Source of the DNA: Thermoanaerobacter kivui
GTDB taxonomy: Bacteria > Bacillota > Thermoanaerobacteria > Thermoanaerobacterales > Thermoanaerobacteraceae
DNA length: 64,000 nucleotides
Assembly (NCBI RefSeq): GCF_000763575.1
Contig: NZ_CP009170.1
Location: 955,501-1,019,500 of the forward strand
Reading direction: 5' to 3'
Under the pieces are notes generated by a model. It was not told the DNA's origin, ran no database searches, and saw nothing but the letters and a program-made list of their open reading frames with translations. The position numbers and the translations under genes are program-made. Each line of letters opens with the position of its first letter. The first letter of the stretch is position 1. Below are positions 24,513 to 42,106 of this stretch, in pieces.

Positions 24513-25478
24513 ATGCGGGTGAGCCTCCTGGAGGTAAGGGATCTGATTAAGCACTACCCGGGAAAAGGAGGGATTCTGGCAGTCCGCCGGGAAAAGGTAC
24601 GCGCTGTTGATGGGGTTTCTTTTTCCATCGCCCGGGGAGAAACCTTGGGTCTCGTGGGGGAAAGCGGCTGCGGCAAGAGCACCCTGGGGCGGCTTGTGGT
24701 GCGGCTGGAAGAACCCACGGCTGGAAAAATTCTTTTTGCCGGCGAGGATATCACCGGCTGGAAGGGGAGAAAGCTGCGGGAGATGCGCCGCCGCTTCCAA
24801 ATCATCTTCCAGGACTCTTCTTCCTCCCTCAACCCGCGCCGTACGGTGGGAGCGACCATAGAGGAACCTCTGGCCAACTTCGGCGTGGCAAAAGAGGAGC
24901 GGCGGGAGCGGGTGGCCGAACTATTAACGCTTGTCGGCCTGGAACCTAGGGATGCGTCGAAATACCCGCACGAATTCAGCGGGGGTCAGCGCCAGCGCAT
25001 CAATATTGCTCGGGCCCTGGCCTTGCAGCCGGAACTGGTGGTCTGCGACGAGCCCGTTTCCAGCCTGGACGTTTCCATCCGGGCGCAAGTATTAAACCTT
25101 TTGCGGGAGCTAAAAAAGCGGCTGGGCTTATCCTACCTCTTCATCTCCCACGACCTGGCGGCAGTGAACTACCTGGCCGACCGGGTGGCGGTAATGTACC
25201 TGGGCAAGATCGTGGAGATCCTGCCGGCAGAAGGCCTTGTCTCACAGGCCCGCCACCCCTACACCCGGGCGCTCCTGCAGGCGGTACCGGAACCCGACCC
25301 GCGGCAGAAGATCAGCCAGAAACCAGTGGTGCGGGGCGAGCCGCCCGACCCAGCCAATCCTCCTGCAGGCTGCCGCTTTCATCCCCGCTGCCCTGAAGCC
25401 CGCGAAGCTTGCCGGCAGGAGGAGCCCGTCTTGAAGGAGGTGGGGGATGGGCATTGGGTGAGGTGCCATTTGAGCTAG
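24513..25478 (+). CDS. Oligopeptide/nickel-type ABC transporter ATPase (DppF/NikE family)
   Basis: This 321-residue ATPase has Walker [10 protein letters not shown] at residues 49-57, the signature [15 protein letters not shown], Walker [12 protein letters not shown] and a C-terminal Cys-containing tail ([15 protein letters not shown]). It is the second ATPase of the first transporter set and begins nine bases after the first behind GAGGGGGAGGG. The matching region of the second set is fused to its partner ATPase. It is complete, GC-rich and almost certainly acquired with its neighbours. Confidence 0.94.
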
Positions 25479-25743: not shown

Positions 25744-26781
25744 ATGGACATTGCTGGCTTAACTGACTTTAAACCACCTGTCTCAGGAGAAGTACTGGCA
25801 GAGATGGCCAGATGCTACCAGAAATCTCTGCTCCTGGAACAGGCGTTTAGGTTAGGGATTTTTGAAAATCTTGCGGCCGGTCGAAGTGTTGCGCAATTGG
25901 CCGAGCAAATGGGGGCCCGTCCGGAGCGGTTAGCTCTCGTACTGGATGCGTTAGTGTCTGTTGGGCTTTTGGAGAAAAACGGCGACACTTACACTAACAC
26001 CGTTATGACCAATACCTTTTTGTGTTTACACAGCAAGTTTTACCAGGGCGATCTCCTTAGACTGCAGCTTGCGCCGGAGCGGCGCCGGCAATGGGAACGA
26101 ATTGGGGATTGGCTGAAGGGAGAGACAATAAGGCAACCTGGCAGTACTGGCGAAGTGTTTAATCCTTCCTTTATCCGGGCCATGGCCCAGGCCACGTTGA
26201 GCCACAAGGGTTTTGAGGCTACGTTGGAGCTGGTGGCCAAGCATCCCGGTTTTGGGAAGGCAAAAAAGTTGCTTGATCTTGGCGGCGGCCATGGGCTTTA
26301 TGCTATTGCCTTAAAAAGGCTGCGACCAGAGCTGGAAGCTACAATCTTCGATCTCCCGCACGCGGAAGAGGTAACGCAAGAGTATGCCCGGCAGTACGGG
26401 GCGATGGTAGCTTTTTATGCCGGGGACTTTTACGTGGACGAGCTGCCTAAAGATCAGGACCTCATTTTAGCCTTTGACGTTTTCTACGGCCCCCCTGCGA
26501 AGACGAAAGAAGTGCTCGGCAGGGTTTATCGTTCGCTCAGACCCGGCGGCTACCTCTTCACCAAACACTGGTTCCTAGATGATACCCGCACCCAACCGGA
26601 GCGAGCCGCGCTTTTTGCCCTGATGCTGGCCCTTAGCAATCCAACTGCGCACGTCTGTACCTGCCGGGAAATGGCGGAAATGCTGACAGAGGTGGGATTG
26701 GCCGTTGAAAAGCTGATTCCTATTGGCGATGCGGCATCTACTATGATTATCGCATGGAAGGGGGAAGGGATAAATGGTTAA
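25744..26781 (+). CDS. SAM-dependent O-methyltransferase with dimerisation domain (BchU/ASMT-like family)
   Basis: The 345-residue protein has an N-terminal winged-helix dimerisation domain (residues 20-95, SLLLEQAFRLGIFENLAAG) and a C-terminal class I methyltransferase domain with SAM motif I LLDLGGGHG at 176-184 and the later segment LRPGGYLFTKHWF. The family (Methyltransf_2) methylates small aromatic molecules and includes BchU, which acts on bacteriochlorophyllide. Being inside an operon with CobN/BchH-type proteins makes a tetrapyrrole or metallophore substrate an attractive inference, but no residue proves it. It overlaps the next gene by eight bases; AAGGAGGG precedes ATG 25744. Confidence 0.85.
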   Translation: MDIAGLTDFKPPVSGEVLAEMARCYQKSLLLEQAFRLGIFENLAAGRSVAQLAEQMGARPERLALVLDALVSVGLLEKNGDTYTNTVMTNTFLCLHSKFYQGDLLRLQLAPERRRQWERIGDWLKGETIRQPGSTGEVFNPSFIRAMAQATLSHKGFEATLELVAKHPGFGKAKKLLDLGGGHGLYAIALKRLRPELEATIFDLPHAEEVTQEYARQYGAMVAFYAGDFYVDELPKDQDLILAFDVFYGPPAKTKEVLGRVYRSLRPGGYLFTKHWFLDDTRTQPERAALFALMLALSNPTAHVCTCREMAEMLTEVGLAVEKLIPIGDAASTMIIAWKGEGING

Positions 26782-28363
26782 AAAAAGTTACCTTGGTCGG
26801 ATTTGGTGTTTTCTTTCGCTTGGTTTGTTGCTCATTTTAATGAGCCTTGCCCTTTTGGGCTGCGGTGGGGCTAAAAAAGAGCAGCCCAAGGCTGGTGACA
26901 ATGGTACTACAGTGAAGGTGGGTATCCGCAAGGACATTGCTTCTCTCGATCCGGCTGTCTTTGGGCAGGGTGGTCCCGATCCGCAGCGTTACTTAATCTA
27001 TGAGCCGCTCCTGTATATGGATGAAAGCTTTAATCTTAAAGGCCGGCTGGCGGAGAGCTGGACCGCCGAAGATCAGGGAAGAGTCTGGACGGTGAAACTT
27101 AAAGAGGGTGTGCGCTTTTCCGACGGTACACCTTTCAACGCGGCGGCGGTAAAGTTTTCCCTGGAGTATCTTTTAAAGGCAAAGCGACTCTTTTGGCCGT
27201 TAGAAAGGATAGAAACGCCGGATGATTATACGGTTAAGCTGGTTTTCAAACGCCCTTATGCGGTGCTGCCCTATGATTTGACTACAGCAGAAATTTTTTC
27301 ACCCACTTCCTTTGATCCCGAGGGGAAATTTAAGGCTCCGGTTGGAACAGGTCCCTTCGTTTTTAAGGAATGGAAAAAGGACCAGGAGCTGATTTTTGCC
27401 CGCAATGAGAACTACTGGGGGCCAAAGCCAAAGGTAAACACGGTGATTTTTAAAGTCATTCCCGATCACCAAACGAGGGCCATGGCCTTGCAGAGCGGGG
27501 AGATTGATATTGCTGATTATCTCCCCGTGGCGGCCATACGTGAAATGGAAAGGACAGGTAAGTTCTCCATTTACAAAAAACCAAGTCCCTGCATGAACTG
27601 GATTGCCTTCAATACCTACCGGGAACCCTTCGATGACGTGAGGGTGCGCCAGGCCGTTTGCTACGCGGTGGATGTAGAACGCATCGTAAGTTCGGTGGTT
27701 GGCAGGGAGGTAGCTACGCCTGCATTAAAGGGCCCCCTTTCCTCGCCGGCGCACGATTACATTAGAAAGCCGGACCTGAAGTGGTACAGCTACGATCCTA
27801 CCAGAGCAAGGGAGTTACTTTTGCAGGCCGGGTGGAAGGATGTCGACGGGGATGGCATTTTAGAAAAGAACGGAAAGAAATTCCAAGTAACGCTTATTGC
27901 CTCCACGCTTTATGAAGAAGGCAGAGCCATTGCCGAGGCCGTACAGGCAGACTTGAAGAAAGTTGGTATTGCCGTGGAAGTGCGGGTGCTGGAGTCTGCG
28001 GCTCGTTTTGAGGCTTTAAAGCAGCGCAATTACGACCTCGTTGAACTGGGCGGGATCTGTGCCACCAACGATCCGACACCTTGGTTCAGCTATTATTTTG
28101 GCACCCAACGTCCGGAATACTGCGTGCTAAAAAACCAGGTTGTGCAAGAACTGGTTAGCAGGCTCTATGCTGCGGTTGAGCCCGAGGTGCGACGGGAAAT
28201 CTTCTTTAAGCTCCAGGAGCTACTAAAAGAGCAGGCGCCGGGCATCTTCCTTTACAATCAGGATGCCGTTACGGTGGCCAGGGAAGCAGTTAAAGATTTT
28301 GCCATGGAAGGCGGCATGCCCGGAAGCTATTCCTACCTGCGGGTTATTTCAATAACCAACTAA
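26774..28363 (+). CDS. Family-5 substrate-binding lipoprotein (dipeptide/nickel ABC type)
   Basis: The 529-residue exported lipoprotein has a long signal peptide with lipobox Cys30 (ALLGC) and the SBP_bac_5 domain: FSDGTPFNAAAVKFS, GTGPFVFKEW, ENYWGPKPKVN and ALQSGEIDIAD. It should capture a ligand outside the membrane and pass it to the permeases. Related proteins bind peptides, Ni-(L-His)2-type complexes or haem. Its end is 13 bases from the CobN-like start, with a shared AAGGAGGTG, so binding protein and chelatase are probably translated together. Confidence 0.92.
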   Translation: MVKKSYLGRIWCFLSLGLLLILMSLALLGCGGAKKEQPKAGDNGTTVKVGIRKDIASLDPAVFGQGGPDPQRYLIYEPLLYMDESFNLKGRLAESWTAEDQGRVWTVKLKEGVRFSDGTPFNAAAVKFSLEYLLKAKRLFWPLERIETPDDYTVKLVFKRPYAVLPYDLTTAEIFSPTSFDPEGKFKAPVGTGPFVFKEWKKDQELIFARNENYWGPKPKVNTVIFKVIPDHQTRAMALQSGEIDIADYLPVAAIREMERTGKFSIYKKPSPCMNWIAFNTYREPFDDVRVRQAVCYAVDVERIVSSVVGREVATPALKGPLSSPAHDYIRKPDLKWYSYDPTRARELLLQAGWKDVDGDGILEKNGKKFQVTLIASTLYEEGRAIAEAVQADLKKVGIAVEVRVLESAARFEALKQRNYDLVELGGICATNDPTPWFSYYFGTQRPEYCVLKNQVVQELVSRLYAAVEPEVRREIFFKLQELLKEQAPGIFLYNQDAVTVAREAVKDFAMEGGMPGSYSYLRVISITN

Positions 28364-28376: not shown

Positions 28377-31300
28377 GTGCTCAAAATTGCTGGTTTTCGC
28401 GTGATTTACGGCCCGAGTACGGTAGGGCGGGTTTACCAGGAGGCTCTGGCCGAGCTTGCAAGCGGGGAATTGGCGGTGGACCTCAGGTACAGCCAGCCGC
28501 CGGCAGCGGGTATGCCTCTGCCGCCCCCGGGCTGGCTTGAGTTTGCGCGGGAGGAGGCGGACGCGGTCTTTTTCAGCTTTCCGCCGGAGTTTAAAGCGTT
28601 AGGAGAGTTTTTCGGCAGGCTAAAAGAGGAACTGCAAAAACCGCTGGTGCCGGTGACCGTCGAGGTGGCGGGGACGGGCAACGTGTCCCCGGAAGCGGCC
28701 CAGCGCGCTATCCATTACCACCTTTTCGGCGGCAAGGAGAACCTGAAAGCCTTCCTCTTGTGGCTGGGCGAGCTGGCCGGGAAGTTGCCGGCCGGGACGG
28801 CGCCCGCTCCGCAGGAACTTCCCTGGGCGGGGATTTATCACCCGCGGGCAAAAGGATATTTTACCCGCCTGGATGATTACCTGGCCTGGTACGGGGAACG
28901 ACAGCCGCTGGTGGGCCTGCTTTTCCCCCGCGTTTTCTGGGTGGAGGAAAACCTGGCGGGGTACGAGGCTATTATCGAAGAAATTGAGCGGCGCGGCGCC
29001 GGAGTAATCCCCGTCTTTAGCGACGGCTGGTTTGGCCAGGTAAAGAACGATGACGTAATCCGGCAGTTTTTCTTCCGGGATGGAAAGCCGGCCATCGAAG
29101 CACTAGTGGCCTACAGCGCCTTTTTCTTGAAGACGCGGCGGGAGGTAGTCGCCCTAAACCGGGAGCCGGCTGATGATGTGCTCGTAGAACTCAACGTGCC
29201 CATCTTAAAGATGATCCACGCTGCGCGGCAGACGGAAGCCCAGTGGCGGGAAGACCCGCAGGGTCTAAATCTGCCGCAGGTGATCATCAGCATCACCTTG
29301 CCGGAATTCGACGGGCTCATCGAGCCCCTTTTGGTCAGCGCGGCGGAGAACGAGGGGGATTTTGCTCGCGGCCGGCCCCTTCTTTCGGAAGTGCGCTACT
29401 TGGTTGACCGGCTCTTCCGTTGGATAGAGCTCCGGCATAAGCCCAATGCCGCAAAGAAAGTGGCCTTTGTCCTTTTAAATTCTCCCTGCAAGAGCGCGGA
29501 GGCTACGGTGGGGACGGCTTTCGGGCTTGACTCCCTGGAGAGCGTGGCCCGCATTTTAAGGCGCATGAAGGAAGAGGGCTACCAGGTGGACTGGGTGCCG
29601 GAAAACGGGCGAGCGCTGGCAGAAGCAATTTTGGGGCGAAAAGCGCTTCCCGACTTCCGCTGGACCACGCTTGACGAGGTAATAACAAAGGGCGGGGCGG
29701 CGGCCATGGTGCCCCTGGAAAAGTACCTTCAGTGGTTTGAAGAACTCCCGCCGCAGGCTAAGGCGAAGGTGGCAGCAGCCTGGGGAGACCCGAGGGAAGC
29801 CGGAGAACTTTCTGGCGTGCAAAAGCTCTCCCTGGGGCTTTATAACGGTCACGTGGTCATCCCCGGAATCGTTACCGGCAATGTGTTTATTGGTGTCCAG
29901 CCAAAGCGGGGTTGCGCCGGCGCCCGGTGTGATGGCGAAGTGTGCAAGATCCTCCACGACCCGGACGTACCGCCGCCCCACCAGTGGATAGCCTGGCACA
30001 GGTGGCTCGAGGAGGAGTTCGGCGCCGACGTGGTGGTGCACGTGGGGACCCACGGGGTGCTGGAGCTTCTGCCCGGCAAGACTACAGCTCTATCTGAATC
30101 CTGTTTCCCCCGCATTTCTCTAGGCAAGGTACCGCACCTTTACATTTACAACCTGGTCAACCCCATGGAGGCGGTAGTGGCCAAGCGGCGCTCGGCTGCG
30201 GTCATCGTGGACCACCTCCCGCCGGTTCTGGCCAGCATGCAGTTAAGTGGGGAACTCGCAGAGCTAGAGGAACTTCTAGAGGACTACCAGAAGGCGATAA
30301 GCCTTAATGAGAAAGGGCGTGCCGAGGTAATCCGGGCGCAGATTGCCGAAAAAGCGCGGGCCGCCAACCTTTTGAGTGGGGAACAAGACCCCGACCCGGC
30401 GGTTTTGCACGAAAAGCTCACCGTATTGCGGGAGAGCCAGTTCCGCGACGGCCTGCATGTACTTGGCGAGGCGCCGGAGGGTGAGGCGCTAGCGGAACTT
30501 CTAAATGCAATCCTGCGGCTCGATCAGCCCGACTGTTCCTCTTTGCGGCGTGCTCTGGCAGAGTGCTTAAAGCTTGATTACGATGCCCTGTTTAAGGAAC
30601 CGCAGGCATTTCACCCTGCAGCCGGGGTGAGCAACGGCAAGCTTCTTGAGGAGCTGGATGTGCTGGGGAAGGAGATCCTGGCTGACCTCCTGGACTTGCC
30701 GGTGGATGCGGTGGGCGAGCCTCTGGCCAGGGCGCAGGAGCACATTTCCCGCTTTGCCCGGCGCCGGGGCCTTACCCTTAATGGCGGTAAAGACTCGCTG
30801 GCCAAAGTGCTGGCCAAAGCCCTGCGCATCATACCCCTGGTGAGGCGCACGACTGATGAGGTAGAAAACCTCCTGCGGGGTTTTGCCGGCAAGTTCATCC
30901 CTCCCGGCGCTTCGGGGGCGCTGGCCCGAGGCAAGGTAGAAGTTCTGCCCACAGGGCGCAACATGTACTCCATCGACCCCTGGCGCATTCCCACCGCTGC
31001 TGCCTGGGAGGTGGGTAAGCGGTTAGCGGAGGAACTCATTGCTCGCTCGAAAAGCGAGGACGGTTCTTACCCGGAAACCATCGGCTTTACCTTGCGGGCG
31101 ATGGATCCCTTCCGGGCTGATGGCGAGCTCATTGCCCAGATCCTCTACACCCTTAGTGTGGAGCCGGTCTGGGTGGCCGGGCGGGTGGTAAACGTTAGGC
31201 CCATCCCGTTGGAAAAGCTTGGCCGGCCACGCATTGACTGTACAGTGAACCTCTCTTCCATTCTACGGGACGGGATGCCGCGGGCCTTTGAACTCGTTGA

Positions 31301-32270
31301 CCAGGCGGTGAAGATGGTGGCGGAGCTGGAGGAGCCGCCGGAACAAAATTTTGTGCGCAAGCACGTGCTGGAAAGGGAGGCCGAGCTCCTGGCAGAGCAC
31401 GGGAAGGAAGAAGCCCGAAGGCTGGCCACCTTACGCGTGTTTTCCTCCGCTCCGGGGACCTACGGCACGGGTGTGGAGCTGGCGGTGGCGGCATCTGCCT
31501 GGAAAGAAGAGCGGGACCTGGCGGAGGTTTATTTCCACTGGACGAGTTACGCCTACGGCGAGGGAGTTTACGCCCGTAAAGCACCTGCCGAGCTGGTGGA
31601 CAGGTGCCGCCGGGTAACTGTGACCTTCGAAAAATTTGACTCGGACGAAATCGACCTTTTGGATTGCTGCCACATCTACGGGGTGCACGGCGGCTTTACT
31701 GTGGCGGCCAAAGTCGCCTCCGGCCAAGAGCCAAAAACCTACTTCGGCGACACGCACGACCCCGAGCGCCCGGTAATCCGCACCCTGCGCGAGGAACTGT
31801 CCCGCATTGCCCACACCCGGCTATTAAACCCGGCCTGGATCGAGGGCAAGAAGCGTCACGGTTACAAGGGGGCCGGGGACATTTCCAGCCGGGTCAACCA
31901 CATGTACGGCTGGCAGGCCACCACCCGCCAGGTGGAAAACTGGGTCTTCGACGGCATTGCCGAAAAGTTCGTCCTGGATGAGGAAAACCGGAAGTTCTTC
32001 CATGAGAACAATCCCTGGGCGCTGGAGGAGATCGCACGCAGGCTCCTTGAGGCGGAGAGCCGGGGACTCTGGCAGGCCGATCCCGAACTCCTGGCCCGGC
32101 TTAAGGAAATTTACTTGGAAATCGAAGGCTGGGTTGAAGAGCGCATGGGGGAGGTGAAAGGTGAGTTTCAGGGCGGGGCGGTGGATGTTCGCGCACTTGG
32201 GGAGATGGAGGGATGGCAGAAGAAATTAGCCGTTGTGCGGCGAGAATTGGAAAGGAGGAAAGCGCAGTGA
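28377..32270 (+). CDS. CobN-like chelatase large subunit, stand-alone
   Basis: This 1297-residue protein is homologous along its length to CobN, the large subunit of aerobic cobaltochelatase. It has the core segment with His555 and His559 (HVGTHGVLELLPGK), then KVPHLYIYNLVNPMEAVVAKRR and a C-terminal part with HTRLLNPAWIEG. A Cys-x4-Cys-x4-Cys insert (Cys513, Cys518, Cys523) sits before the HDPDVPPPHQW block and could bind metal. CobN normally needs AAA+ CobS and CobT; neither is here, nor any corrin gene. GTG 28377 fits the AAGGAGGTG spacing; GTG 28368 lies inside it. It could be a metal-inserting or metal-releasing protein for an imported tetrapyrrole; the substrate is unknown. Confidence 0.9.
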   Translation: MLKIAGFRVIYGPSTVGRVYQEALAELASGELAVDLRYSQPPAAGMPLPPPGWLEFAREEADAVFFSFPPEFKALGEFFGRLKEELQKPLVPVTVEVAGTGNVSPEAAQRAIHYHLFGGKENLKAFLLWLGELAGKLPAGTAPAPQELPWAGIYHPRAKGYFTRLDDYLAWYGERQPLVGLLFPRVFWVEENLAGYEAIIEEIERRGAGVIPVFSDGWFGQVKNDDVIRQFFFRDGKPAIEALVAYSAFFLKTRREVVALNREPADDVLVELNVPILKMIHAARQTEAQWREDPQGLNLPQVIISITLPEFDGLIEPLLVSAAENEGDFARGRPLLSEVRYLVDRLFRWIELRHKPNAAKKVAFVLLNSPCKSAEATVGTAFGLDSLESVARILRRMKEEGYQVDWVPENGRALAEAILGRKALPDFRWTTLDEVITKGGAAAMVPLEKYLQWFEELPPQAKAKVAAAWGDPREAGELSGVQKLSLGLYNGHVVIPGIVTGNVFIGVQPKRGCAGARCDGEVCKILHDPDVPPPHQWIAWHRWLEEEFGADVVVHVGTHGVLELLPGKTTALSESCFPRISLGKVPHLYIYNLVNPMEAVVAKRRSAAVIVDHLPPVLASMQLSGELAELEELLEDYQKAISLNEKGRAEVIRAQIAEKARAANLLSGEQDPDPAVLHEKLTVLRESQFRDGLHVLGEAPEGEALAELLNAILRLDQPDCSSLRRALAECLKLDYDALFKEPQAFHPAAGVSNGKLLEELDVLGKEILADLLDLPVDAVGEPLARAQEHISRFARRRGLTLNGGKDSLAKVLAKALRIIPLVRRTTDEVENLLRGFAGKFIPPGASGALARGKVEVLPTGRNMYSIDPWRIPTAAAWEVGKRLAEELIARSKSEDGSYPETIGFTLRAMDPFRADGELIAQILYTLSVEPVWVAGRVVNVRPIPLEKLGRPRIDCTVNLSSILRDGMPRAFELVDQAVKMVAELEEPPEQNFVRKHVLEREAELLAEHGKEEARRLATLRVFSSAPGTYGTGVELAVAASAWKEERDLAEVYFHWTSYAYGEGVYARKAPAELVDRCRRVTVTFEKFDSDEIDLLDCCHIYGVHGGFTVAAKVASGQEPKTYFGDTHDPERPVIRTLREELSRIAHTRLLNPAWIEGKKRHGYKGAGDISSRVNHMYGWQATTRQVENWVFDGIAEKFVLDEENRKFFHENNPWALEEIARRLLEAESRGLWQADPELLARLKEIYLEIEGWVEERMGEVKGEFQGGAVDVRALGEMEGWQKKLAVVRRELERRKAQ

Positions 32271-33829
32271 AGAAAAAACGCTTGTGGTTTAAGGGACTTT
32301 CTTATGTGGTCCTAGCATTGCTCCTTATGGGGGCGATAACGTTAGCAGGTTGTAACCAAAGGAATGTACCGGCACGAGGGCAGGCGCAGGAGCTTGCCAT
32401 AGCGCTGGGCGAAAAAGAAGTGATCTCCCTTGACCCTTTCGACCCGCATGGTTCCTCCTCTTCCTGGTACATTCAGCCGATGCTTTTTGAAACCCTGGTG
32501 TTCGACACGTTGAAGAGCACGGAACCAATGCTGGCGGAAAGGTGGGAAGTGTCGTCGGACGGGAAAAAATGGACGTTTTACTTGCGGCAGGGGGTAAAGT
32601 TTCATGACGGCAGTTTTCTTACGGCAGAGGCAGTAAAATTTAGCATCGAAAGGTCTCTGGCCAATAAAGTTTCCGGCTTGGGAGCCCGAAAACCTCCGGT
32701 GCCCATAACCAGAGTGGAAGCAGCGGATGAAAGGACAGTTGTCGTTCATCTCGATAAGCCGTACGGGCCTTTCCTTTCCGAAATCGGCAGCGTGAGGATT
32801 GTCAGTCCTGCCTCCTACCAAGGAGATAAGTTTATAAGACCCGTGGGGACCGGTCCCTGGGTGGTTGCTTCTTTTAACCCTCAAGAAATGGTCTTTACGC
32901 CTTTTGAAGATTACTGGCGGGGGAAACCCAAGCTTAGCAAGGTTGCGATAAAGTGCATTCCCGATCCGCAGGCGCGGGTGATGGCCCTGGAGTCTGGCGA
33001 AGTGGATGTAATTGGGGTGGACATGCAGGGAGTGGAGCCGGCGGCAGCCAAGAGCCTTGCGGCTTCCGGGAAGTACCAGGTGATATCTCTCCACCAGGCT
33101 TATTTAGTAGCGCTGTATTTCAACCCGCGCGCCGAACTGCTAAAAGACATCCGGGTGAGGCAGGCCATAAACTATGCGCTGAACCGTGGGGAAATGGTGG
33201 CCAAACTGTTGGAGGGTTACGGCGTTCCCGCCAAAGGACCAGTAGGATTTGACACCTCTATTCCCTGGACCAACCCGCGTATAGAAGGGTATCCTTACGA
33301 CCCGGAAAAGGCCAAAGCGCTTCTTAAAGATGCCGGGTTTGAAGGGGACGCGCCGCTTAAGCTTGCCTACGAAGGCTACCGTGCCTACCACAAGACTCTG
33401 GCCGAACTGATTCAGGCCCAGCTTGGCGCCGTGGGGATTAAGGTCGAGCTTAATTCATACGAGTCAGGGGCTTTCACTCAAATGCTCCAGGCCGGGCAGT
33501 ACGATCTGGCGCTCATTCCGCCCTACGGCAAGCGGGAAGAGGATCCTTACCCCTATCTCGGGATGTTCTTCTTCTCCCAGGGACGATACAAGGTGATGGG
33601 AAGCGCTGAATTTGACCGGCTTTTTATGGCCCAGCTCTTCACTGCGGATCAGAAGGAGCGCGAGAAACTCTACTGGGCGCTGCAGGAGGAAATTATGAAA
33701 AACTGCCCGGCGGCCTTCCTGTTCCACCCCGACCGGATAACGGTGCTTAAGAAAGACATTCAGGGCTGGGAGTCGCATTACGGTTTTAACAGCCTGACCA
33801 CGCTGTGGAAGGTGAGCCGGGGAGAGTAG
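32267..33829 (+). CDS. Family-5 substrate-binding lipoprotein, second
   Basis: The 520-residue lipoprotein has signal peptide Cys29 (TLAGC) and SBP_bac_5 motifs FHDGSFLTAEAVKFS, GTGPWVVASF and ALESGEVDVIG. GTG 32267 is chosen: it follows AAAGGAGG and overlaps the CobN stop, and the longer reading from 32213 would put 18 polar residues before the signal peptide. It is only distantly related to the SBP at 26774, so it probably binds a different ligand or form. A strong terminator follows, ending the first transcription unit. Confidence 0.92.
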   Translation: MKKKRLWFKGLSYVVLALLLMGAITLAGCNQRNVPARGQAQELAIALGEKEVISLDPFDPHGSSSSWYIQPMLFETLVFDTLKSTEPMLAERWEVSSDGKKWTFYLRQGVKFHDGSFLTAEAVKFSIERSLANKVSGLGARKPPVPITRVEAADERTVVVHLDKPYGPFLSEIGSVRIVSPASYQGDKFIRPVGTGPWVVASFNPQEMVFTPFEDYWRGKPKLSKVAIKCIPDPQARVMALESGEVDVIGVDMQGVEPAAAKSLAASGKYQVISLHQAYLVALYFNPRAELLKDIRVRQAINYALNRGEMVAKLLEGYGVPAKGPVGFDTSIPWTNPRIEGYPYDPEKAKALLKDAGFEGDAPLKLAYEGYRAYHKTLAELIQAQLGAVGIKVELNSYESGAFTQMLQAGQYDLALIPPYGKREEDPYPYLGMFFFSQGRYKVMGSAEFDRLFMAQLFTADQKEREKLYWALQEEIMKNCPAAFLFHPDRITVLKKDIQGWESHYGFNSLTTLWKVSRGE

Positions 33830-33841
33830 CTTTTGAAGGCG

Positions 33842-33890
33842 ATTCGCCCCGGCGACACCACGTGCCGGAGCCGGGGCGAATTTGATTTTT
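33842..33890 (+). terminator. GC-rich terminator between the two island operons
   Basis: ATTCGCCCCGGC pairs perfectly with GCCGGGGCGAAT around a 15-base loop and is followed by TTGATTTTT. It lies 12 bases after the second SBP stop. The BchH-like gene downstream therefore needs its own promoter in 33891-33950 or readthrough. Confidence 0.85.
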
Positions 33891-33956
33891 GGCAGTTTAA
33901 GCGTTCCATTGCCTAAGCGACAAGTCAAGCGTCTGACCAGAGAACGGAGGTGAAGC

Positions 33957-36900
33957 ATGGTCAATTTTCTTCTTCTCACCACCATGGACAACACCCGAGA
34001 GCTTAGGGAAGCGCTGGCAGAGATTAGGGCCGACTATGGAGAAATCCTTTCGGTGAAGAAAATCTATTTCTTCGACTGGGAGCGGGGGACGATTGATCCG
34101 GTAGAGGTGGAAGAAGCGGTAAGAAGTTCCCAGGTTATCCTCGTGGACATCCGCGGGCAGACGGAATTCACCGACCGTCTTCGGGAGTTGGTGGCTGGGA
34201 GCGCCGCCACGGTGGTGGTTCTGGTGGGCGGAAGCCGCGACATCCTCTCCCTTACCCGGATGGGATCTTTCTCCGGGGCCGACCTTCCCGCGTGGAGGCG
34301 CTTCGACATCGAGGCCTACCTTAAGGCCAAGAAGTTCATGGAGCTCACCAAAAGATTGGGTTCGGTTTTACCGGTGGGCAAGCTCAAACACCTGCGTAAC
34401 TGGCTGGTAGCTTGCGAATATTACGCTGAGGGCGGCAAAGAGAACCTCAAGAACTTGTTTCTCTTCCTCTTGCGGGAGTACTGCGGAGCCCAGGTTAAGG
34501 TGGGGCCGCCCCAGAAGAGACCCGAATACGGTATTTGGTGGCCTCCGGACCGCTACTATTCGGATCTTCGGGCCTTCAAGTCCGCCGTAGGGTGGCAGGC
34601 GGACAAGCCCGCAGTAGGGGTGTTCTTCTACGGCGGCATGCATCTTGGCGACTGCCTGCCGGTGGTAGAAGCGTTGGCGGAGGAATTGCGCGGCGAGGTG
34701 AACCTCATCCCTGTTTTTTCTAAAGTGGAGTACAACCTGGCGGCTATGCGAGCCTTTTTCTTTGACGAAGGGCATCCGGCGGTTGACCTCGTAGTTAACC
34801 TGCAGTACTTCCGGTTGCACGGTGGGCCTTACGGCGGGACGCCCGAACCAACCTACCAGCTGCTGTCCGAACTCGGCGTTCCGGTGCTGACAGGATTTCG
34901 GTCTTACGCGACGGAAATAAGGGAGTGGCAAAGAGAGAACCGGCTGAATCCGCTAGAAATCACCATCGGTGTTATGTTACCGGAGCTGGACGGCTACATA
35001 GAGCCGATTTACGTGGGGGGGCTCGTGTCCCTCGGGGAAGACGGGTTCTTAGGTGGGGAAGTAAAAGAGGCTAGGGCTCTGCACGAAGGGATAGAGAGGC
35101 TTGCCGGGCGGATCCGCAAGTGGCTTTGCTTGCGGCGCAAGCCCAACGTCGAGAAAAGGCTGGCTATCATCCTATACGACTATCCCCCGGGAGAAGCTAA
35201 CCTGGGCAGCGCCGGTTATCTCGATGTCCTGGAAAGCCTGCGGATCTTTCTCGAAAGGCTTGCGGCTGCCGGATACCGGGTGGAAGTTCCCGCGGGGCAC
35301 TTGGGGGAATTTCTCTTATCCCGGGGGGTGGTGAACACGCCTGAGTGGCCTCTTACCCCTCCTGGCATAGCGGTGGATGTCAACCTCTACCGCCGGTGGT
35401 ACGAGGAGCTCCCGCTGGATTTGCGGGCCGAGATCGAAAGGCACTGGGGAAAACCGCCGGGAACCGTAATGGTCAAACAAGGCCAGATTATGATCCCCGG
35501 CGTGGTGGCAGGCAACGTTTTCATCGGTGTGCAGCCGTCGCGCGGTGTTCACGAAAATCCCGAGAAAGCCTATCACGATAAAGAGTTGCCGCCGCACCAC
35601 CAGTACCTCTGTTTTTACTGGTGGTTGCAAAAAGAATTTCGGGCGGACTGCATCATCCACTGGGGTATGCACGGCACCCTGGAGTTCACCAGGGGCAAGG
35701 AAGCCCCGGTGTCGCGCCGCTGCTTTCCGGACATTCTGATTGGCGACGTTCCCCACCTCTACTATTACTGGGTAGGAAATCCCTCGGAATCCACGATTGC
35801 CAGGCGGAGAAGCTACGCGGTGACGGTTTCCCACGCCTCGCCGCCGGTGATTGCCGCCGGCCTTTACGGCGAGTACTTAGAGCTGGAGGAACTGCTGGCG
35901 GAGTACCGGCAAGCCGAGGGTCGGGACAAGGAGACCCTGGCGGGGGCAATCAAAGAAAAAGCGCAGGCGCTCTCCATGCCTGTCGGGGATCTGGCAGAAC
36001 TGGAAGTCTATCTTTACCGGATGAAGAGGCGGCTTATCCCCAAAGGTTTGCATGTTCTGGACCGGCAGCTTGAGGGAGAAGATTTGGTCAATTACCTGGC
36101 CGCCCTGGTGCGCTTTGACCGGGAAGTGCCCTCCTTTTACCGGATGGTGGCCGAGAGAATGGGCTTTTCCTACGAGAGTCTCGCTCGGGACCCGGAGGTA
36201 TTTGTTGCTGTTGACCGCGAAGTGCACCAGGCGATCGGGCGCTGGCTGGCGGGGGATGAGTCGGCCCTGCCGACGGAAATAGGCCGGTATCTTGCGGGGG
36301 TAAGGGAAAACATTGCCCGCTCGCAGGAAAGCGCGGGGCTTCTTTCGGCACTGGATGGGCGCTACCTTCTTCCCAACCTGGCCGGAGATCCGGTGCGTTC
36401 GCCTGAGGTTTACCCTGTCGGCCGGAATATGTATGAGTTCGACCCGCGGCTCATACCCACACCCCTGGCGCTAAAGCGCGGGGAAGAAGCAGTAAAGGTC
36501 ATTCTGGAGAGATTTTACCACACGCACGGGCGCTACCCCGAAACAGTGGGGATGGTGCTGTGGGGATTTGAGACCTTAAGCACGGGGGGCGAAACCATAG
36601 CCCAGATACTGGCTTATCTCGGCGTGCGCCTGGTGCGGAAGGAAAGCCCCTGGTTCAAGGAACTGGAGCTTATTCCTTTAGAGGAACTCGGTCGGCCCCG
36701 CATTGATGTTCTGGTGACCATCTGCGGCATCTTCCGCGATATATGCGGCCCCCAGATTGAACTAATCAACCAGGCAGTGGAACTGGCGGCCGGTGCCGCG
36801 GAGCAAGAAGAGATGAATTTTGTCCGCAAACACAGCTTGGGAATGGCAGCAGAATATGGCGGTGTCAGCCGGGGACGGGTATTCGGGCCTCATGCTACGG

Positions 36901-37586
36901 AGTACGCCACGTCAATGCGGGCGCTGGTGGAAAGCGGAATCTGGCGGGAGGAAAAGGAGCTTGTAGAAAGTTATGACAGCTCCATGTGTTATTGCTATCA
37001 CCGGGGCAGGGTTGAGGAAAACCATGATCTCTTTACCAGGCTTCTCTCTACCATCGATGTGGTTTCGCAAGTAAGGCACAGCACGGAATATGAATTTACC
37101 GACCTCGACCATTACTACGAGTTTTTTGGCGGGCTTTCCCGGAGCGTGGCGGAAAAGAAAGGAAAAGCTCCCGAACAGTGGGTGGTGGATACCACAGAGG
37201 AGATTACCGAAGTGGCCGATGTGGGCCTGGCCATTGACCGCGCGGTGAGAACGCGCCTCTTCAATCCCCGGTGGATTGACGAGATGCTGAAGCACCAGCA
37301 CCACGGCGCCCAGAAGATAGCCGAGCGGTTGGAATATCTGATCGGCCTCAAGGCCACCACTGGCCGGGTGAGTGAGTGGGTTTTCCGCGAGGCGCTCCAC
37401 CGCTTCCTGCTGGACCAGGACATGCGCCGCCGGTTGGCGGAGAACAACCGCTTTGCCGCCCTGGAAGTAGCCAGGCGTATCGCTGAAGCCATGCGCCGGG
37501 GCTATTTGAACTGCAAAGATGAAGAGTTGACCGAATTCCAGAACGCGGTGCTTGAACTGGAGGGCTGGATTGAAGAGAAGGCTTAA
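33957..37586 (+). CDS. BchH/ChlH-like (CobN family) chelatase large subunit, stand-alone
   Basis: This 1209-residue protein belongs to the CobN/BchH family but is closer to magnesium chelatase H. It has HWGMHGTLEFTRGKEA (His568, His572, Glu576), then NPSESTIARRRSYAVTVSH and GLYGEYLELEELLAEYR, and a C-terminal RTRLFNPRWIDEMLKH region. It lacks the Cys insert of the other copy. Magnesium and cobalt chelatases need ATPase partners (I and D subunits), which are absent. The Bacteroidetes haem-use protein HmuS is also a family member found beside transporters, so release of metal from a tetrapyrrole is as plausible as insertion. ATG 33957 follows GGAGGTGAAGC. Confidence 0.9.
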   Translation: MVNFLLLTTMDNTRELREALAEIRADYGEILSVKKIYFFDWERGTIDPVEVEEAVRSSQVILVDIRGQTEFTDRLRELVAGSAATVVVLVGGSRDILSLTRMGSFSGADLPAWRRFDIEAYLKAKKFMELTKRLGSVLPVGKLKHLRNWLVACEYYAEGGKENLKNLFLFLLREYCGAQVKVGPPQKRPEYGIWWPPDRYYSDLRAFKSAVGWQADKPAVGVFFYGGMHLGDCLPVVEALAEELRGEVNLIPVFSKVEYNLAAMRAFFFDEGHPAVDLVVNLQYFRLHGGPYGGTPEPTYQLLSELGVPVLTGFRSYATEIREWQRENRLNPLEITIGVMLPELDGYIEPIYVGGLVSLGEDGFLGGEVKEARALHEGIERLAGRIRKWLCLRRKPNVEKRLAIILYDYPPGEANLGSAGYLDVLESLRIFLERLAAAGYRVEVPAGHLGEFLLSRGVVNTPEWPLTPPGIAVDVNLYRRWYEELPLDLRAEIERHWGKPPGTVMVKQGQIMIPGVVAGNVFIGVQPSRGVHENPEKAYHDKELPPHHQYLCFYWWLQKEFRADCIIHWGMHGTLEFTRGKEAPVSRRCFPDILIGDVPHLYYYWVGNPSESTIARRRSYAVTVSHASPPVIAAGLYGEYLELEELLAEYRQAEGRDKETLAGAIKEKAQALSMPVGDLAELEVYLYRMKRRLIPKGLHVLDRQLEGEDLVNYLAALVRFDREVPSFYRMVAERMGFSYESLARDPEVFVAVDREVHQAIGRWLAGDESALPTEIGRYLAGVRENIARSQESAGLLSALDGRYLLPNLAGDPVRSPEVYPVGRNMYEFDPRLIPTPLALKRGEEAVKVILERFYHTHGRYPETVGMVLWGFETLSTGGETIAQILAYLGVRLVRKESPWFKELELIPLEELGRPRIDVLVTICGIFRDICGPQIELINQAVELAAGAAEQEEMNFVRKHSLGMAAEYGGVSRGRVFGPHATEYATSMRALVESGIWREEKELVESYDSSMCYCYHRGRVEENHDLFTRLLSTIDVVSQVRHSTEYEFTDLDHYYEFFGGLSRSVAEKKGKAPEQWVVDTTEEITEVADVGLAIDRAVRTRLFNPRWIDEMLKHQHHGAQKIAERLEYLIGLKATTGRVSEWVFREALHRFLLDQDMRRRLAENNRFAALEVARRIAEAMRRGYLNCKDEELTEFQNAVLELEGWIEEKA

Positions 37587-37624
37587 CTCCGGGTTTGCCC
37601 GGAAAAAAAGAAGGAGGCATAAGG

Positions 37625-38524
37625 ATGGCCGACCTTCATGTCGGTGAGGTATTAAGACCGAAGTTTATTACCGGTAGCCGTTCTTTGTTTAGCGGGGCGA
37701 TTGCAAGGCTCTGGCAAGATAAACTGGCTCTTTTGGGGCTGGTGATCATCCTGGCTGTGGTGGCCATGGCCATCTTTGCCCCCTACCTGGCGCCTAATGA
37801 CCCAGTGAAAGTTAACCTGGCGCAGCGTCTTGCACCGCCCGGCGCGCAGTACCCCCTGGGCACCGACCACCTGGGGCGCTGCCTCTTGTCGCGGTTGATC
37901 TATGGCACGAGGGTTTCCCTAGCCACGGCGGCTTTAGCTCTTTCTGCCATCGTGCTCATCAGCATTCCCCTGGGCACCCTGGCGGGCTACTGCGGGGGGC
38001 GGGTGGACAACGCCATCATGCGGGTAGTGGACGTGCTGCTGGCCTTTCCGGGCCTGATCCTGGCGCTGGTCATCGCCGGGACGCTGGGGCCGGGGCTTTT
38101 AAACGTAATGCTGGCGTTATCTTTAGTCTGGTGGGTGGGGTACGCCCGGGTCATCCGGGGGATGGTTCTTTCGGTGAAAGAGAAGGAATTCGTTCTGGCG
38201 ACCCGGGCCTGCGGCACGCGTGAGATGGGCATCATCACGCGGCACATCCTGCCCAACATGCTCTCCCCGGTGATCGTCCTGGCCACGCTGGACATGGGCA
38301 AGCTGATCCTGGCCATCTCCGGGCTTTCCTTCCTGGGTCTCGGCGCCCAGCCGCCCACGCCGGAGTGGGGGGCCATGCTCAACGACGGCCGCCCTTACAT
38401 GCAGGTGGCACCGCAGCTCATGGTCTACCCGGGCCTTTGCATCATGACGGTGGTGCTGGCCTTCAACCTGCTGGGCGACGGCTTAAGGGACGCCCTGGAC
38501 CCGCGGGGGATGACCAGGCTTTAA
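37625..38524 (+). CDS. Dipeptide/nickel-type ABC transporter permease (DppC/NikC family), copy 2
   Basis: The 299-residue permease has the OppC_N and BPD domains, with YPLGTDHLGRCLLSRLIYG, ATRACGTREMGIITRHILPN and LSFLGLGAQPPTPEWGAML. It is near-identical in many stretches to the product at 22584-23522 but has a different N-terminal 30 residues. ATG 37625 follows AAGGAGGCATAAGG; TTG 37595 would put that site inside the gene. No DppB-type partner accompanies it, so it may share the permease at 21641 or be non-functional alone. Confidence 0.92.
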   Translation: MADLHVGEVLRPKFITGSRSLFSGAIARLWQDKLALLGLVIILAVVAMAIFAPYLAPNDPVKVNLAQRLAPPGAQYPLGTDHLGRCLLSRLIYGTRVSLATAALALSAIVLISIPLGTLAGYCGGRVDNAIMRVVDVLLAFPGLILALVIAGTLGPGLLNVMLALSLVWWVGYARVIRGMVLSVKEKEFVLATRACGTREMGIITRHILPNMLSPVIVLATLDMGKLILAISGLSFLGLGAQPPTPEWGAMLNDGRPYMQVAPQLMVYPGLCIMTVVLAFNLLGDGLRDALDPRGMTRL

Positions 38525-38543
38525 AAAATAGGGGGAGAACCGG

Positions 38544-40508
38544 ATGTCCCTTGTTCCTGTTTTAAAGGTGAAAAATCTTTCCACTCACTTTCATACCCGG
38601 CACGGCATCATTAAGGCCGTAGACGGAGTGAGTTTTGAGGTGGCAGCGGGGAAAACCCTGGGGCTGGTAGGGGAAAGCGGCTGCGGCAAGAGCGTCACGG
38701 CCCTGTCCATCCTGCGCCTGATTGAGCCGCCGGGAAGAATTCTCTCCGGGGAAGTCTGGTTAAACGGCTATAACCTGCTTAAGCTCCCTCCAGGGCAGTT
38801 GCGGCAGGTGCGGGGTAAAGAAATAGCGCTGGTTTTCCAGGACCCGCTGACCTCCCTGAACCCGGTTTTAACCATCGGTACGCAGATTACGGAAACCATT
38901 GTCTCTCATGAAGAGGTATCCCGGGCTGAAGCGCGGCGTCGCGCGGTGGAGCTTCTTTTCCGCCTGGGCCTGCCCGACCCGGAAAGGCTCATGCGCTTAT
39001 ACCCTTTTCAGCTTTCCGGGGGCATGCGCCAGCGGGTGATGATGGCCATGGCGATCTCGATGCGCCCGAAAGTTTTGATTGCCGATGAGCCCACCACTGC
39101 CCTGGACGTTACCGTCCAGGCCCAGATCCTGGCGGAGCTGAAGCGGCTGCAGGAAGAGCTGGGAATGGCCATCGTCCTCATCACCCACGACCTGGGGGTA
39201 GTTGCATCCATGGCCGACGAAGTGGCGGTGATGTACGCCGGATCGATTGTGGAGCGCGGCCCGGTAGCAGAAGTGTTTGACCACCCCGCCCACCCCTACA
39301 CCCGGGCTTTGCTCCGCTCCGTGCCGCGCCTTAGCAAGGAAGAACTGGTGCCCATCGGGGGACAGCCGCCGACGCTTCTAAATTTCCCAGCCCATTGCGC
39401 CTTCTTCCCCCGCTGCCCCGAGGCGCACACGGAGTGCCGGGGAAAGAAGCCGGAATTGCGGGAGATCGGGCCGGACCACGCGGCAGCCTGCCACCGCATT
39501 TCCCGGAGTTGCCCAGGGGGGGGCTGGGCGCAGGTGACCCTCTTAGAGGTAAGGGAAGTGGTGAAGCACTACGCCGGGAAAAGGGGGATATTTGCGGGTC
39601 ACCGGGAAAAGGTGCGGGCGGTGGACGGCGTCACATTCGCCTTGGCACGGGGAGAAACCCTGAGCCTGGTGGGAGAAAGCGGTTGCGGCAAGAGCACCCT
39701 GGGGCGGCTTGTGGTGCGGCTGGAAGAACCCACGGCTGGAAAAATTCTTTTTGCCGGCGAGGATATCACCGGCTGGACGGGGAGAAAGCTGCAGGAGCTG
39801 CGCCGCCGCTTCCAGATCATCTTCCAGGACTCTTCTTCCTCCCTCAACCCGCGCCGGACGGTGGGGGCAATCATTGAGGAACCCCTGGCCAATTTCGGCG
39901 TGGCTAAAAGGGAGCGCCAGGAGCGGGTGGCCGAACTATTAACCCTTGTCGGCCTTGAACCCGGAGATGCTTGGAAATACCCGCACGAATTCAGCGGGGG
40001 GCAGCGCCAGCGCATCAACATCGCCCGGGCCCTGGCCCTGCAACCGGAACTGGTGGTCTGCGACGAGCCCGTTTCCAGCCTGGACGTCTCCATCAGGGCG
40101 CAGATCTTGAATCTATTGCGGGAACTAAAAAAGCGGCTGGGCTTATCCTACCTCTTCATCTCCCACGACCTGGCGGCGGTGAATTACCTGGCCGACCGGG
40201 TGGCGGTGATGTACCTGGGCAAGATCGTGGAAATCCTGCCGGCAGAAGGCCTCGGATCACAGGCCCGTCACCCTTACACCCGGGCGCTTTTGCGCGCCGT
40301 GCCGGAGCCCGACCCGCGGCAAAGAACCGACCGAAAAGCGGTGGTACGGGGTGAGCCGCCCGACCCGGCAAATCCTCCCGCGGGTTGCCGCTTTCACCCC
40401 CGCTGTCCCGAGTTTCGTGATATCTGCCGGCGGGAGGAGCCCACCTTAAAGGAGGTGAGGGAGGGTCACCTGGTGGCTTGTCATTTAGGTGAGGCTTGCC
40501 TTAAGTAA
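38544..40508 (+). CDS. Fused DppD-DppF-type ABC transporter ATPase
   Basis: This 654-residue protein joins two complete ATPase domains. The first (residues 1-323) has Walker A GESGCGKS at 43-50 and LSGGMRQ. The second (about 333-654) has Walker [10 protein letters not shown] at 377-385 and FSGGQRQ. Each half keeps its Cys-bearing oligo_HPY tail. The two halves match the separate genes at 23529 and 24513. The junction contains a run of eight G (39516-39523) where the first set has a stop codon and a new start, so the fusion arose by a small indel. Single-chain DF fusions exist in this family, so it may be functional. Confidence 0.9.
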
Positions 40509-40561: not shown

Positions 40562-42106
40562 TTGAGACTCAAGAAGTGTTTAATCGTACTGGTAGCATTT
40601 TGTGCACTTTTGCTGCTCCTAGCGGGCTGTACTGCAAAGGTTTCTGAGAAAACGGGAAACAAAGGAGAAACCGAAAATAAAACCTTGGCTATCGGTTTGG
40701 CCCAGTTCCCCGGCAACCTCGACCCTGCCGACCAGTACAACGGCTGGTACGTAGTCAAATTCGGTGTGGGTGAAACTCTTGTAAAAATAGGCAAGGACAT
40801 GAAGGTTGAACCATGGCTTGCGGAAACATGGAAAAAAGTAGACGATTTAACTTGGCAGATAAAGATCAGGGATAATGTTATTTTTCACAACGGAACGAAG
40901 GTTACCGGTGAGGCGGTGAAGGCTTCGCTGGAACGCACAGTCGCAATGAATAAAAGGGCGTCCCAGTTGCTTGATATTGCTTCCATAGAGGTGAATGGCA
41001 ATGAAATAACGGTCAAGAACAATCGTCCGAATCCATCGTTTATACCGACCCTGGCCGATCCTTTCGCGGTGATAGTGGATGTGGCCGCGGCCAGGGCGAT
41101 GGGTGAAGAGTTTGCCAAAAAACCCGTGGCAACCGGGCCTTTTAAAATCAAAGGGTACGCAAAAGATGTTGAAGTAGTGGTTGAAAAGAACGACAATTAT
41201 TGGGGAAGTAAGCCAAAGTTGGATGAGGTGGTCTTTAAATTCATACCAGACAGCAATACACGGGTAATGGCGTTGCAGGCGGGTGAAATTCAGGTTGCGG
41301 ACAACATCCCAGCAGAAAGCGTGGGGTCAATCGTTAAAGCCGGGTCCTATCAAATTTTAAGCGGGTCCTCTCTCCGTACCCACATGCTCATTTTTAACGT
41401 GACGAAACCGGGACTTGATGATGTCAATGTCAGAAAAGCCATTAATATGGCTATTAACAGGGAAGACCTGGCCAACAAAGTGATGAAAGAAAGCGCCATT
41501 CCCGCCACCGGTCCGTTCCCGCACGTGCTACCTTTTGGAGGCGGTGAATTAAAAGGGTATGCTTATCAGCCTGAGGAGGCTAAGAAGCTCCTGGATGCCG
41601 CAGGGTGGAAGCCTGGACCCGACGGTGTCCGCCGGAAGAACGACAGGAAGCTGGAGTTCTCCGTGCTTTGTTATAAAAACCGGCCGGAACTGCCGGTTCT
41701 CCTGGAGGCCATCCAGGCAGAACTGAAGGAGATTGGTGTTAAGATAAACATAATCAATGTGGAAAACATTGGGGAAGCCCTGAAAAAAGATTTTGATGCC
41801 ACCATTTACAGCTTGAATACAGCTCCGTACGGCGATCCGCAATACCTTCTCGAAACCGTTTTTAAAACAGGGGCAGCTTCCAACTTTGGGAAATACAGCA
41901 ATCCCGGGCTGGATTCTTTGATCGACAGTCTTAAGACAGAATTTGATGTCCAGAAGAGAAATTCCATAGCAAGAGAAGCTCAACAGATAGTGCTGGGCGA
42001 TGCTGCTTTTGCCTTCCTAGTTTACCCCAAATGTTTTCTCGCGGTGAGTGATGAGGTCGAGGGCATCCAGGTGTTTCCTTCCGATTTTATCATTTACATT
42101 ATATAA
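40562..42106 (+). CDS. Family-5 substrate-binding lipoprotein, third
   Basis: The 514-residue lipoprotein has signal peptide Cys23 (LLAGC) and SBP_bac_5 segments FHNGTKVTGEAVKAS, ATGPFKIKGY, NDNYWGSKPKLDE and ALQAGEIQVAD. Its base composition is less GC-rich than the preceding genes, so its history may differ. TTG 40562 follows GGGAGGCATG. It directly follows the fused ATPase gene by 53 bases and probably feeds the second transporter set. Confidence 0.91.
   Translation: MRLKKCLIVLVAFCALLLLLAGCTAKVSEKTGNKGETENKTLAIGLAQFPGNLDPADQYNGWYVVKFGVGETLVKIGKDMKVEPWLAETWKKVDDLTWQIKIRDNVIFHNGTKVTGEAVKASLERTVAMNKRASQLLDIASIEVNGNEITVKNNRPNPSFIPTLADPFAVIVDVAAARAMGEEFAKKPVATGPFKIKGYAKDVEVVVEKNDNYWGSKPKLDEVVFKFIPDSNTRVMALQAGEIQVADNIPAESVGSIVKAGSYQILSGSSLRTHMLIFNVTKPGLDDVNVRKAINMAINREDLANKVMKESAIPATGPFPHVLPFGGGELKGYAYQPEEAKKLLDAAGWKPGPDGVRRKNDRKLEFSVLCYKNRPELPVLLEAIQAELKEIGVKINIINVENIGEALKKDFDATIYSLNTAPYGDPQYLLETVFKTGAASNFGKYSNPGLDSLIDSLKTEFDVQKRNSIAREAQQIVLGDAAFAFLVYPKCFLAVSDEVEGIQVFPSDFIIYII

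Follow-up and report, generated by a model that had tools for sequence, protein, structure and literature searches.

Two divergent chelatase-family proteins in an acquired, putatively nickel-regulated island of Thermoanaerobacter kivui

The locus and its two chelatase-family genes

The window studied here is a stretch of 64,000 bases from Thermoanaerobacter kivui, an acetogen whose genome is a single contig of 2,397,824 bases. It contains an island of transporter genes that also encodes two large proteins of the CobN/Mg-chelatase H superfamily and is preceded by a predicted operator of the nickel regulator NikR. The two proteins, 28377 and 33957, are named after the first base of their genes. 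Coordinates refer to the window unless marked as genome coordinates, and those of the features are collected in Table 1. Both proteins match the profile PF02514 (gathering score 24.5) over nearly its full length, both carry the HxGxHG motif, and they share 35% identity with each other. The longest open reading frame of the first gene begins at 28368. Since AAGGAGGTG precedes the GTG at 28377, the start is placed there, where an earlier reading of this DNA from its letters and open reading frames (the sequence-only reading) had also put it.

That reading had called 28377 CobN-like and 33957 BchH-type. Against NCBIfam, 28377 scores above the cut-off of the CobN model NF004646 (1512.6 versus 1468) and 33957 above that of the BchH model TIGR02025 (873.5 versus 829), so that automatic naming from these cut-offs would give CobN and BchH. 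Both names are too specific. The labels hold for the profile scores, but 28377 falls outside the CobN clade of the cobalamin pathway and 33957 is a sister of photosynthetic BchH. A sign that the host makes (bacterio)chlorophyll was sought at the BchM/ChlM step only, and no match above the cut-off was present in the genome.

The genome encodes five full-length PF02514 proteins, more than the two copies of which the sequence-only reading had spoken: 28377, 33957 and, in genome coordinates, 919324, 503650 and 1581158. With 87% identity, the protein most similar to 33957 is the product of genome 919324-922956, a gene that lies about 70 kb upstream and is followed by that for CbiM. The single ChlI-type gene of the genome is found with the gene for a VWA protein at genome 510998-513096. 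Two secreted-looking proteins of 385 amino acids (aa), alike as far as seen, are encoded at genome 508984-510141 and 1575320-1576477. Both contain a small part of the CobN domain (profile positions 725-838), and each adjoins a protein in which a copper-amine-oxidase N-terminal domain is combined with a periplasmic-binding domain.

Phylogeny and active-site residues

Two trees were calculated, a quick tree of 90 rows and a careful tree of 39 rows with a mixture model, and their groups agree. The groups are HmuS-like proteins (A), photosynthetic BchH (B), BchH-like proteins (C), CobN (D) and a cysteine clade (E). Clade C contains 33957 and 919324 together with proteins of Desulforudis, Alkanophaga, Methanoregula and others; in both trees it is sister to the photosynthetic BchH/ChlH clade and not nested within it. 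Clade E contains 28377 and 503650 together with proteins of Alkanophaga, Archaeoglobus and many Bacillota. It is sister to clade D, which holds the Sinorhizobium and Halobaculum CobN proteins and genome 1581158, and 28377 is placed outside D (support 100/99 and 100/100 in the 39-row tree, 100 and 100 in the 90-row tree). Neither tree places 28377 or 33957 in the HmuS clade, whose rows sit on long branches and are left unresolved by the 39-row tree. A recent duplication of 28377 and 33957 from each other is ruled out by their 35% identity and by their separate, strongly supported clades, in agreement with the earlier claim that they are paralogues of different lineages. The two are also not simply redundant, as that reading had argued: they represent two lineages, both have the catalytic His motif, and their pairing recurs in other genomes. 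They may serve two steps or two substrates, as the same reading suggested.

The H-x3-H-x3-E motif noted in the sequence-only reading is present in both proteins, as HVGTHGVLE in 28377 (His555, His559, Glu563) and as HWGMHGTLE in 33957 (His568, His572, Glu576), and the first His motif is kept in all alignment rows. The insert Cys513-x4-Cys518-x4-Cys523 of 28377, described in the same reading, is likewise real. It lies right ahead of the conserved HDP block, its cysteines become 516/521/526 when numbered from 28368, and it is found in all 26 sampled clade E rows and in no other row. Three further cysteines, which that reading had not mentioned, are conserved. Cys371 is present in 25 of 25 clade E rows and in no other row, and the second-site segment of the clade has Cys at position 1097 (25/26), at 1098 (24/26) and, in 18 of 26 rows, at the third position. 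This segment is Cys-Cys-Cys, or Cys-Cys-His in the group of 28377, with a few exceptions.

The residues can be compared with HmuS, a demonstrated de-chelatase that loses turnover in the His538Ala variant. In HmuS, His538 stands opposite His1209 across the cleft, Glu1212 supports His1209, and the Loop I histidine is predicted to shut over the cleft (PMC12583661). The numbering of Bacteroides finegoldii HmuS matches the published one at His506 and His538, which places the Cys insert of 28377 just before the Loop I histidine. In 33957, His572, His1052 and Glu1055 align with HmuS His538, His1209 and Glu1212. Both histidines and the glutamate are present in clade C (LDHYYEFFGG and variants), and the second-site histidine is also found in most photosynthetic BchH rows. 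In 28377 the second-site segment reads LDCCHIYGVHGG, without the axial His1209 and the LDHxxEFxGG motif of HmuS.

The predicted structure models are confident, with a mean pLDDT (predicted local distance difference test) of 84 for 28377 and 85 for 33957. Structural modelling had been suggested in the sequence-only reading as a check for a disrupted active site, and neither model points to a broken enzyme. The confidence is low around the Cys insert of 28377, as expected of a mobile loop. Both models match the solved structures of CobN, ChlH and HmuS across about 1000 residues. The best match of 28377 is CobN 7c6o (Z 54.5), while the top matches of 33957 are ChlH structures (Z about 50), level with CobN. 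Against HmuS the two proteins give Z 36-39.

Predicted nickel regulation

In delta-proteobacteria the NikR signal has been published as GTGTTAC-N13/14-GTAACAC, and the form GTGTTAt-N13-GTAACAC is given for two Desulfovibrio sites (PMC545781). The box at 21063 has exactly this Desulfovibrio form. It is situated in AT-rich DNA 552 bp ahead of the first island gene, and no other exact match to GTGTTA-N12..16-TAACAC occurs in the genome. When one mismatch is allowed in the fuller pattern, six sites are found genome-wide. They precede the island, nikR-nikMNQO, 503650 (box at genome 503550, 74 bp ahead), 919324 (box at genome 919037, 261 bp ahead), the CooC-like gene at 44571 (by 444 bp) and an operon with a Fec-type binding protein. 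The clade D paralogue 1581158 has no box. With two NikR genes in the genome and a predicted operator upstream, the island is by sequence a predicted member of a NikR regulon. This predicted control, which the sequence-only reading did not include, is the best hint at a function. Other Thermoanaerobacter genomes, without clade C or E genes, carry the same box before nikR-nikM and the Fec-type protein, which is an independent check of the motif. Reversed patterns used as a control gave a mean of 2.1 sites per genome, which makes six sites mildly unusual (P about 0.014). The chance of boxes standing before all three clade C/E loci is about 1e-10 by a rough estimate made after the fact.

A box also precedes a clade E gene in genome G398 (same family). 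In the archaeon Methanoliparum (L028:6688-16010) a NikR-like box is located 34 bp before the first gene of an operon that encodes a Fec-type binding protein, a permease, an ATPase, a clade C protein and a ChlI/D fusion. Permuted patterns gave zero matches at the stringency of the G398 and Methanoliparum search. No cobalamin riboswitch (RF00174) reached the gathering score in the window, and none was seen up to E 5 between 20900 and 47200. An earlier link of NikR to the CobN/BchH family was not found in the open-access literature. We regard the locus as a real and conserved variant of a known superfamily, with a link to nickel that is strong and well supported on purely computational grounds.

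The box before the Fec-type system lies at genome 1676029-1676055, ahead of genes for a binding protein (PF01497), a permease and an ATPase, and is conserved in several related species. This system is possibly a nickel-chelate importer of the genus.

Origin and other genes of the island

Table 1. Features of the island and its flanks (window coordinates)
Feature	Position	Strand	Evidence
tRNA-Ala	20848..20923	+	ARAGORN; acquired segment starts within about 25 bases of the 3' end
Predicted NikR operator, GTGTTAT-N13-GTAACAC	21063..21089		0 mismatches; signal published in PMC545781
Nik/Opp-type ATP-binding cassette (ABC) permease, NikB-like	21641..22579	+	PF00528; Opp2B 448 bits (cut-off 350); Opp1B 394.6 (cut-off 380)
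Nik/Opp-type ABC permease, NikC-like	22584..23522	+	Open reading frame (ORF) and sequence; paralogue of 37595
Nik/Opp-type ABC ATPase, NikD-like	23529..24503	+	ORF and sequence; near copy of the first half of 38544-40508
Nik/Opp-type ABC ATPase, NikE-like	24513..25478	+	ORF and sequence; near copy of the second half of 38544-40508
S-adenosylmethionine-dependent methyltransferase, Methyltransf_2 kind, distantly BchU-like	25744..26781	+	PF00891 66.3 bits; PF08100
Family-5 substrate-binding lipoprotein 1	26774..28363	+	PF00496; best NCBIfam match NikA, 254.7 bits (below cut-off 393)
CobN-like chelatase protein, cysteine clade (E)	28377..32270	+	1297 aa; PF02514 1212.9 bits
Cys513-x4-Cys518-x4-Cys523 insert codons	29913..29945	+	Loop corresponding to Loop I of ChlH/HmuS
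Cys1097-Cys1098-His1099 codons	31665..31673	+	Alignment segment of HmuS His1209
Family-5 substrate-binding lipoprotein 2	32213..33829	+	PF00496; longest ORF, true start may be further in
BchH-like chelatase protein (clade C)	33957..37586	+	1209 aa; PF02514 1059.1 bits
Second NikC-like permease	37595..38524	+	ORF and sequence
Fused NikD-NikE-type ATPase	38544..40508	+	Two ATPase stretches; TIGR02769 NikE 463.5 (cut-off 332.55); TIGR02770 NikD 436.8 (cut-off 318.7)
Family-5 substrate-binding lipoprotein 3, most NikA-like	40562..42106	+	PF00496; NF045468 Opp5A_nikA 463.9 bits (below cut-off 600)
Family-5 substrate-binding lipoprotein 4	42466..44004	+	PF00496; 79% identical protein in the G322 cassette
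Second predicted NikR operator, GTGTTAT-N13-GTAATAC	44101..44127		One mismatch; 444 bp before 44571
CooC-like MinD-type ATPase	44571..45341	+	PF01656 CbiA 49.1 bits; 73% identical gene in the G398 chelatase locus

The GC (guanine plus cytosine) content is about 48-62% from about 21.6 to 44 kb, and 30-42% in most of the window. Outside the island it is about 34%, and that of the genome is about 35%. The GC rise starts past the transfer-messenger RNA (tmRNA) and the tRNA-Ala, and four other genomes of Thermoanaerobacter can be aligned only as far as 20937-20947, right past the tRNA-Ala. Because both changes occur just past this gene, the island is best read as foreign DNA gained at a tRNA gene. 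A direct repeat derived from the tRNA or tmRNA was sought at the right end of the island, and no such flanking repeat was found.

The sequence-only reading had assigned the two chelatase genes to adjacent operons. This is unproven: every gene from 21641 to 44004 is on the plus strand, and a binding-protein gene separates the two. The island holds a NikC-like permease gene with two ATPase domains twice (22584-25478 and 37595-40508), the second ATPase pair being fused into one protein of 654 aa, which looks like a duplication within the island. In the NCBIfam scan the permease at 21641 stayed under the cut-off of TIGR02789 NikB. The methyltransferase scores 50.7 bits against TIGR02716 BchU, far below the cut-off of 276.1; methylation of a tetrapyrrole by this enzyme is a guess. 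No gene for tetrapyrrole biosynthesis or for an exporter was seen in the island by reading its open reading frames and sequence. The CooC-like gene has a lower GC content than the island, and the likeness of its product to CooC suggests nickel insertion into carbon monoxide dehydrogenase. Between this gene and the second box a TrmO_N-like frame (44370-44520) survives as a broken remnant, and intact relatives occur in the chelatase loci of genomes G398 and G002. Further downstream, an NADH:flavin oxidoreductase-like gene (48319-50158) is seemingly split into the overlapping frames 48319-48738 and 48602-50158, by a frameshift or a sequencing error.

Gene neighbourhoods in other genomes

Genes of clades C, D and E repeatedly adjoin Fec- or Nik-type importers and ChlI/D in bacteria and archaea. 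The pairing of a CobN-type with a BchH-type gene is also found in Alkanophaga (L017/L018), Archaeoglobus (L031) and genome G173 (L078/L079). In G173 the order CobN, binding protein, BchH is that of the island, and the protein in the place of lipoprotein 2 is 83-94% identical to it. Genome G322 repeats a cassette of NikB, ATPase, binding proteins, methyltransferase and a 28377-type protein, so that the methyltransferase is retained beside the chelatase-family gene. The chelatase locus of G398 also contains a flavin reductase gene besides that of the CooC-like ATPase. Two flavin reductase genes of this genome, L081:12934-13482 in the chelatase locus and L164:844-1455 with a predicted NikR box, adjoin genes for Fec-type binding proteins; the enzyme is possibly an electron source for reductive metal release. 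In genome G002, another member of the Bacillota, a locus (L126, 3-19311) encodes a homologue with 90% identity to 28377 and a protein of the HmuS clade, together with a Nik/Opp-type transporter and TrmO_N-like and FmdE proteins, and it may be a combined metal-chelate locus.

Proposed function

We tentatively propose that the island encodes a nickel-starvation system that imports a chelate of nickel (or cobalt) and demetallates it as HmuS does heme, a reading that we consider possible but short of probable. NikR acts as a repressor in Escherichia coli. At low nickel NikR would lose its nickel and transcription behind the box at 21063 would rise. The Nik/Opp-type transporters and the several lipoprotein receptors would, judging from their families, import a metal chelate. 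This would most likely be a tetrapyrrole of nickel, for instance F430 or a nickel porphyrin, and possibly one of cobalt. By analogy with HmuS, 28377 and 33957 would extract the metal from the chelate and not insert it. Both axial histidines that serve HmuS are present in 33957 (His572, and His1052 with Glu1055). In 28377, which keeps His559, the freed metal may be taken over by thiolates of the Cys-Cys-His at the second site and of the three cysteines in the cleft-gating loop, or these cysteines may hold an Fe-S cluster. The CooC-like ATPase could then hand nickel to carbon monoxide dehydrogenase. Removal is preferred over insertion because of the expression under nickel starvation, if NikR represses as in E. 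coli, and because of the importer neighbours.

Several observations weigh against this proposal. The genome encodes ChlI and a VWA protein, which would allow ATP-driven insertion, and both models score higher against the CobN and ChlH structures than against HmuS. The box-placement statistics are of the rough kind described above. Forty other Bacillota loci with members of the family have no box, and few of the genomes with such box-free loci have a NikR match. The box as a general trait of these clades is thus rejected for most Bacillota, in which NikR and the chelatases do not broadly co-occur. In addition, a relative of 33957 in genome G329 is located behind a cobalamin riboswitch and the G173 locus has two, which points to cobalt there. 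Because most Bacillota loci are boxless and these two genomes have riboswitches, the metal may differ between lineages, being nickel in some and cobalt in others.

Unlikely, though the most serious of the alternatives, is that the proteins are H subunits of cobalt chelatases that work with the ChlI and VWA proteins of the genome in making cobalamin, of which an acetogen needs much, the transporters importing cobalt. The NF004646 score of 28377 agrees with this, as do CbiM, a cobalt/nickel transporter part, behind the 919324 copy, and the riboswitches with the relatives of 33957, accompanied in G329 by cob genes. The island itself, however, has NikR-type boxes in place of a cobalamin riboswitch, a CbiK/CbiX-like chelatase adjoins the cobalamin genes of the genome, the member of the CobN clade is encoded by another, third gene (1581158), and at the second site clade E has cysteines where CobN has histidine or acidic residues.

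Quite unlikely is the insertion of nickel, either for making a nickel tetrapyrrole or for recycling a tetrapyrrole nickelophore, which would be secreted, loaded outside the cell and, after import, unloaded or reloaded, with the methyltransferase modifying the ring. The methyltransferase does occur in both the island and the G322 cassette, ABC-2-type exporters and ChlI/D adjoin several related genes, and earlier authors had suggested that CobN-like proteins of methanogens put nickel into F430. Current descriptions name CfbA as the naturally occurring nickel-chelatase. An inserter repressed by NikR would be made when nickel is short, which is awkward unless a nickelophore is involved; we know of no such tetrapyrrole nickelophore, and neither an exporter gene nor one for making tetrapyrroles was seen in the island. 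A role confined to F430 biosynthesis is a poor fit, since methyl-coenzyme M reductase is not expected in these bacteria.

It is improbable that the proteins have no catalytic activity and serve as soluble receptors or chaperones that bind the imported chelate and pass it on: five H-type proteins beside a single ChlI-type gene would fit this, and the cysteine loop and the Cys-Cys-His suit metal binding, but the catalytic His motif is found in every alignment row and the whole fold is intact. A merely accidental nickel link, with a foreign chelatase island landing behind a native NikR-controlled promoter, is just as doubtful: the GC contrast, the tRNA insertion and the box in AT-rich DNA 552 bp away would fit it, but the homology to related species stops ahead of the box, and further boxes stand before 919324 and 503650, which lie apart from the island, as well as before counterparts in G398 and an archaeon.

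The demetallation proposal can be extended to a rather unlikely but far-reaching form, in which importers under NikR control act with two chelatase clades that have been little studied, one of them Cys-rich in its active-site region, to strip nickel from tetrapyrroles such as F430 or petroleum porphyrins in anaerobic bacteria and in methane- and alkane-cycling archaea. If true, nickel would join the metals recovered by the chelatase fold, the travelling of such genes with chelate importers would be explained, and nickel in the F430 of dead methanogens or in oil porphyrins would have a route back to living cells. A nickel operator before genes of two such clades, seen both in a bacterium that can be cultured and in a single archaeal operon, provides a concrete and testable assignment, and clade E offers structure determination and spectroscopy a defined target.

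Comparison with known systems

HmuS of the Bacteroidota hmu operon (PDB 9d26/9p4s, PMC12583661) shares with both proteins the fold over about 1000 residues and the HxGxHG motif, and with 33957 also the LDHxxEF-GG motif with the axial His and Glu. Its gene lies near chelate importers, as do those of the island. HmuS forms a separate clade, and 28377 has Cys-Cys-His at the second axial segment. Furthermore, HmuS acts on heme, has a TonB receptor and HmuY as neighbours and carries an N-terminal membrane anchor, whereas the island has Nik/Opp transporters and a NikR box. To CobN (PDB 7c6o, 9uk9, 9fpc) 28377 is linked by the NF004646 score and by its best structure match; CobN lacks the conserved cysteines of clade E, 28377 is outside its clade, and the island has neither cob genes nor a B12 riboswitch. 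BchH/ChlH (PDB 4zhj, 5ewu) resembles 33957 in the TIGR02025 score, in the top structure matches and in the histidine at the second site, but 33957 is sister to the photosynthetic group and the genome has no BchM match above the cut-off. Classical NikR-regulated transporters contain no chelatase-fold proteins, and the four binding proteins of the island are all below the NikA cut-offs. Nevertheless, the NikR box and the Nik/Opp transporter parts are common to the island and to nikABCDE/nikMNQO, and a nikR-nikMNQO locus with a similar box is present elsewhere in the T. kivui genome.

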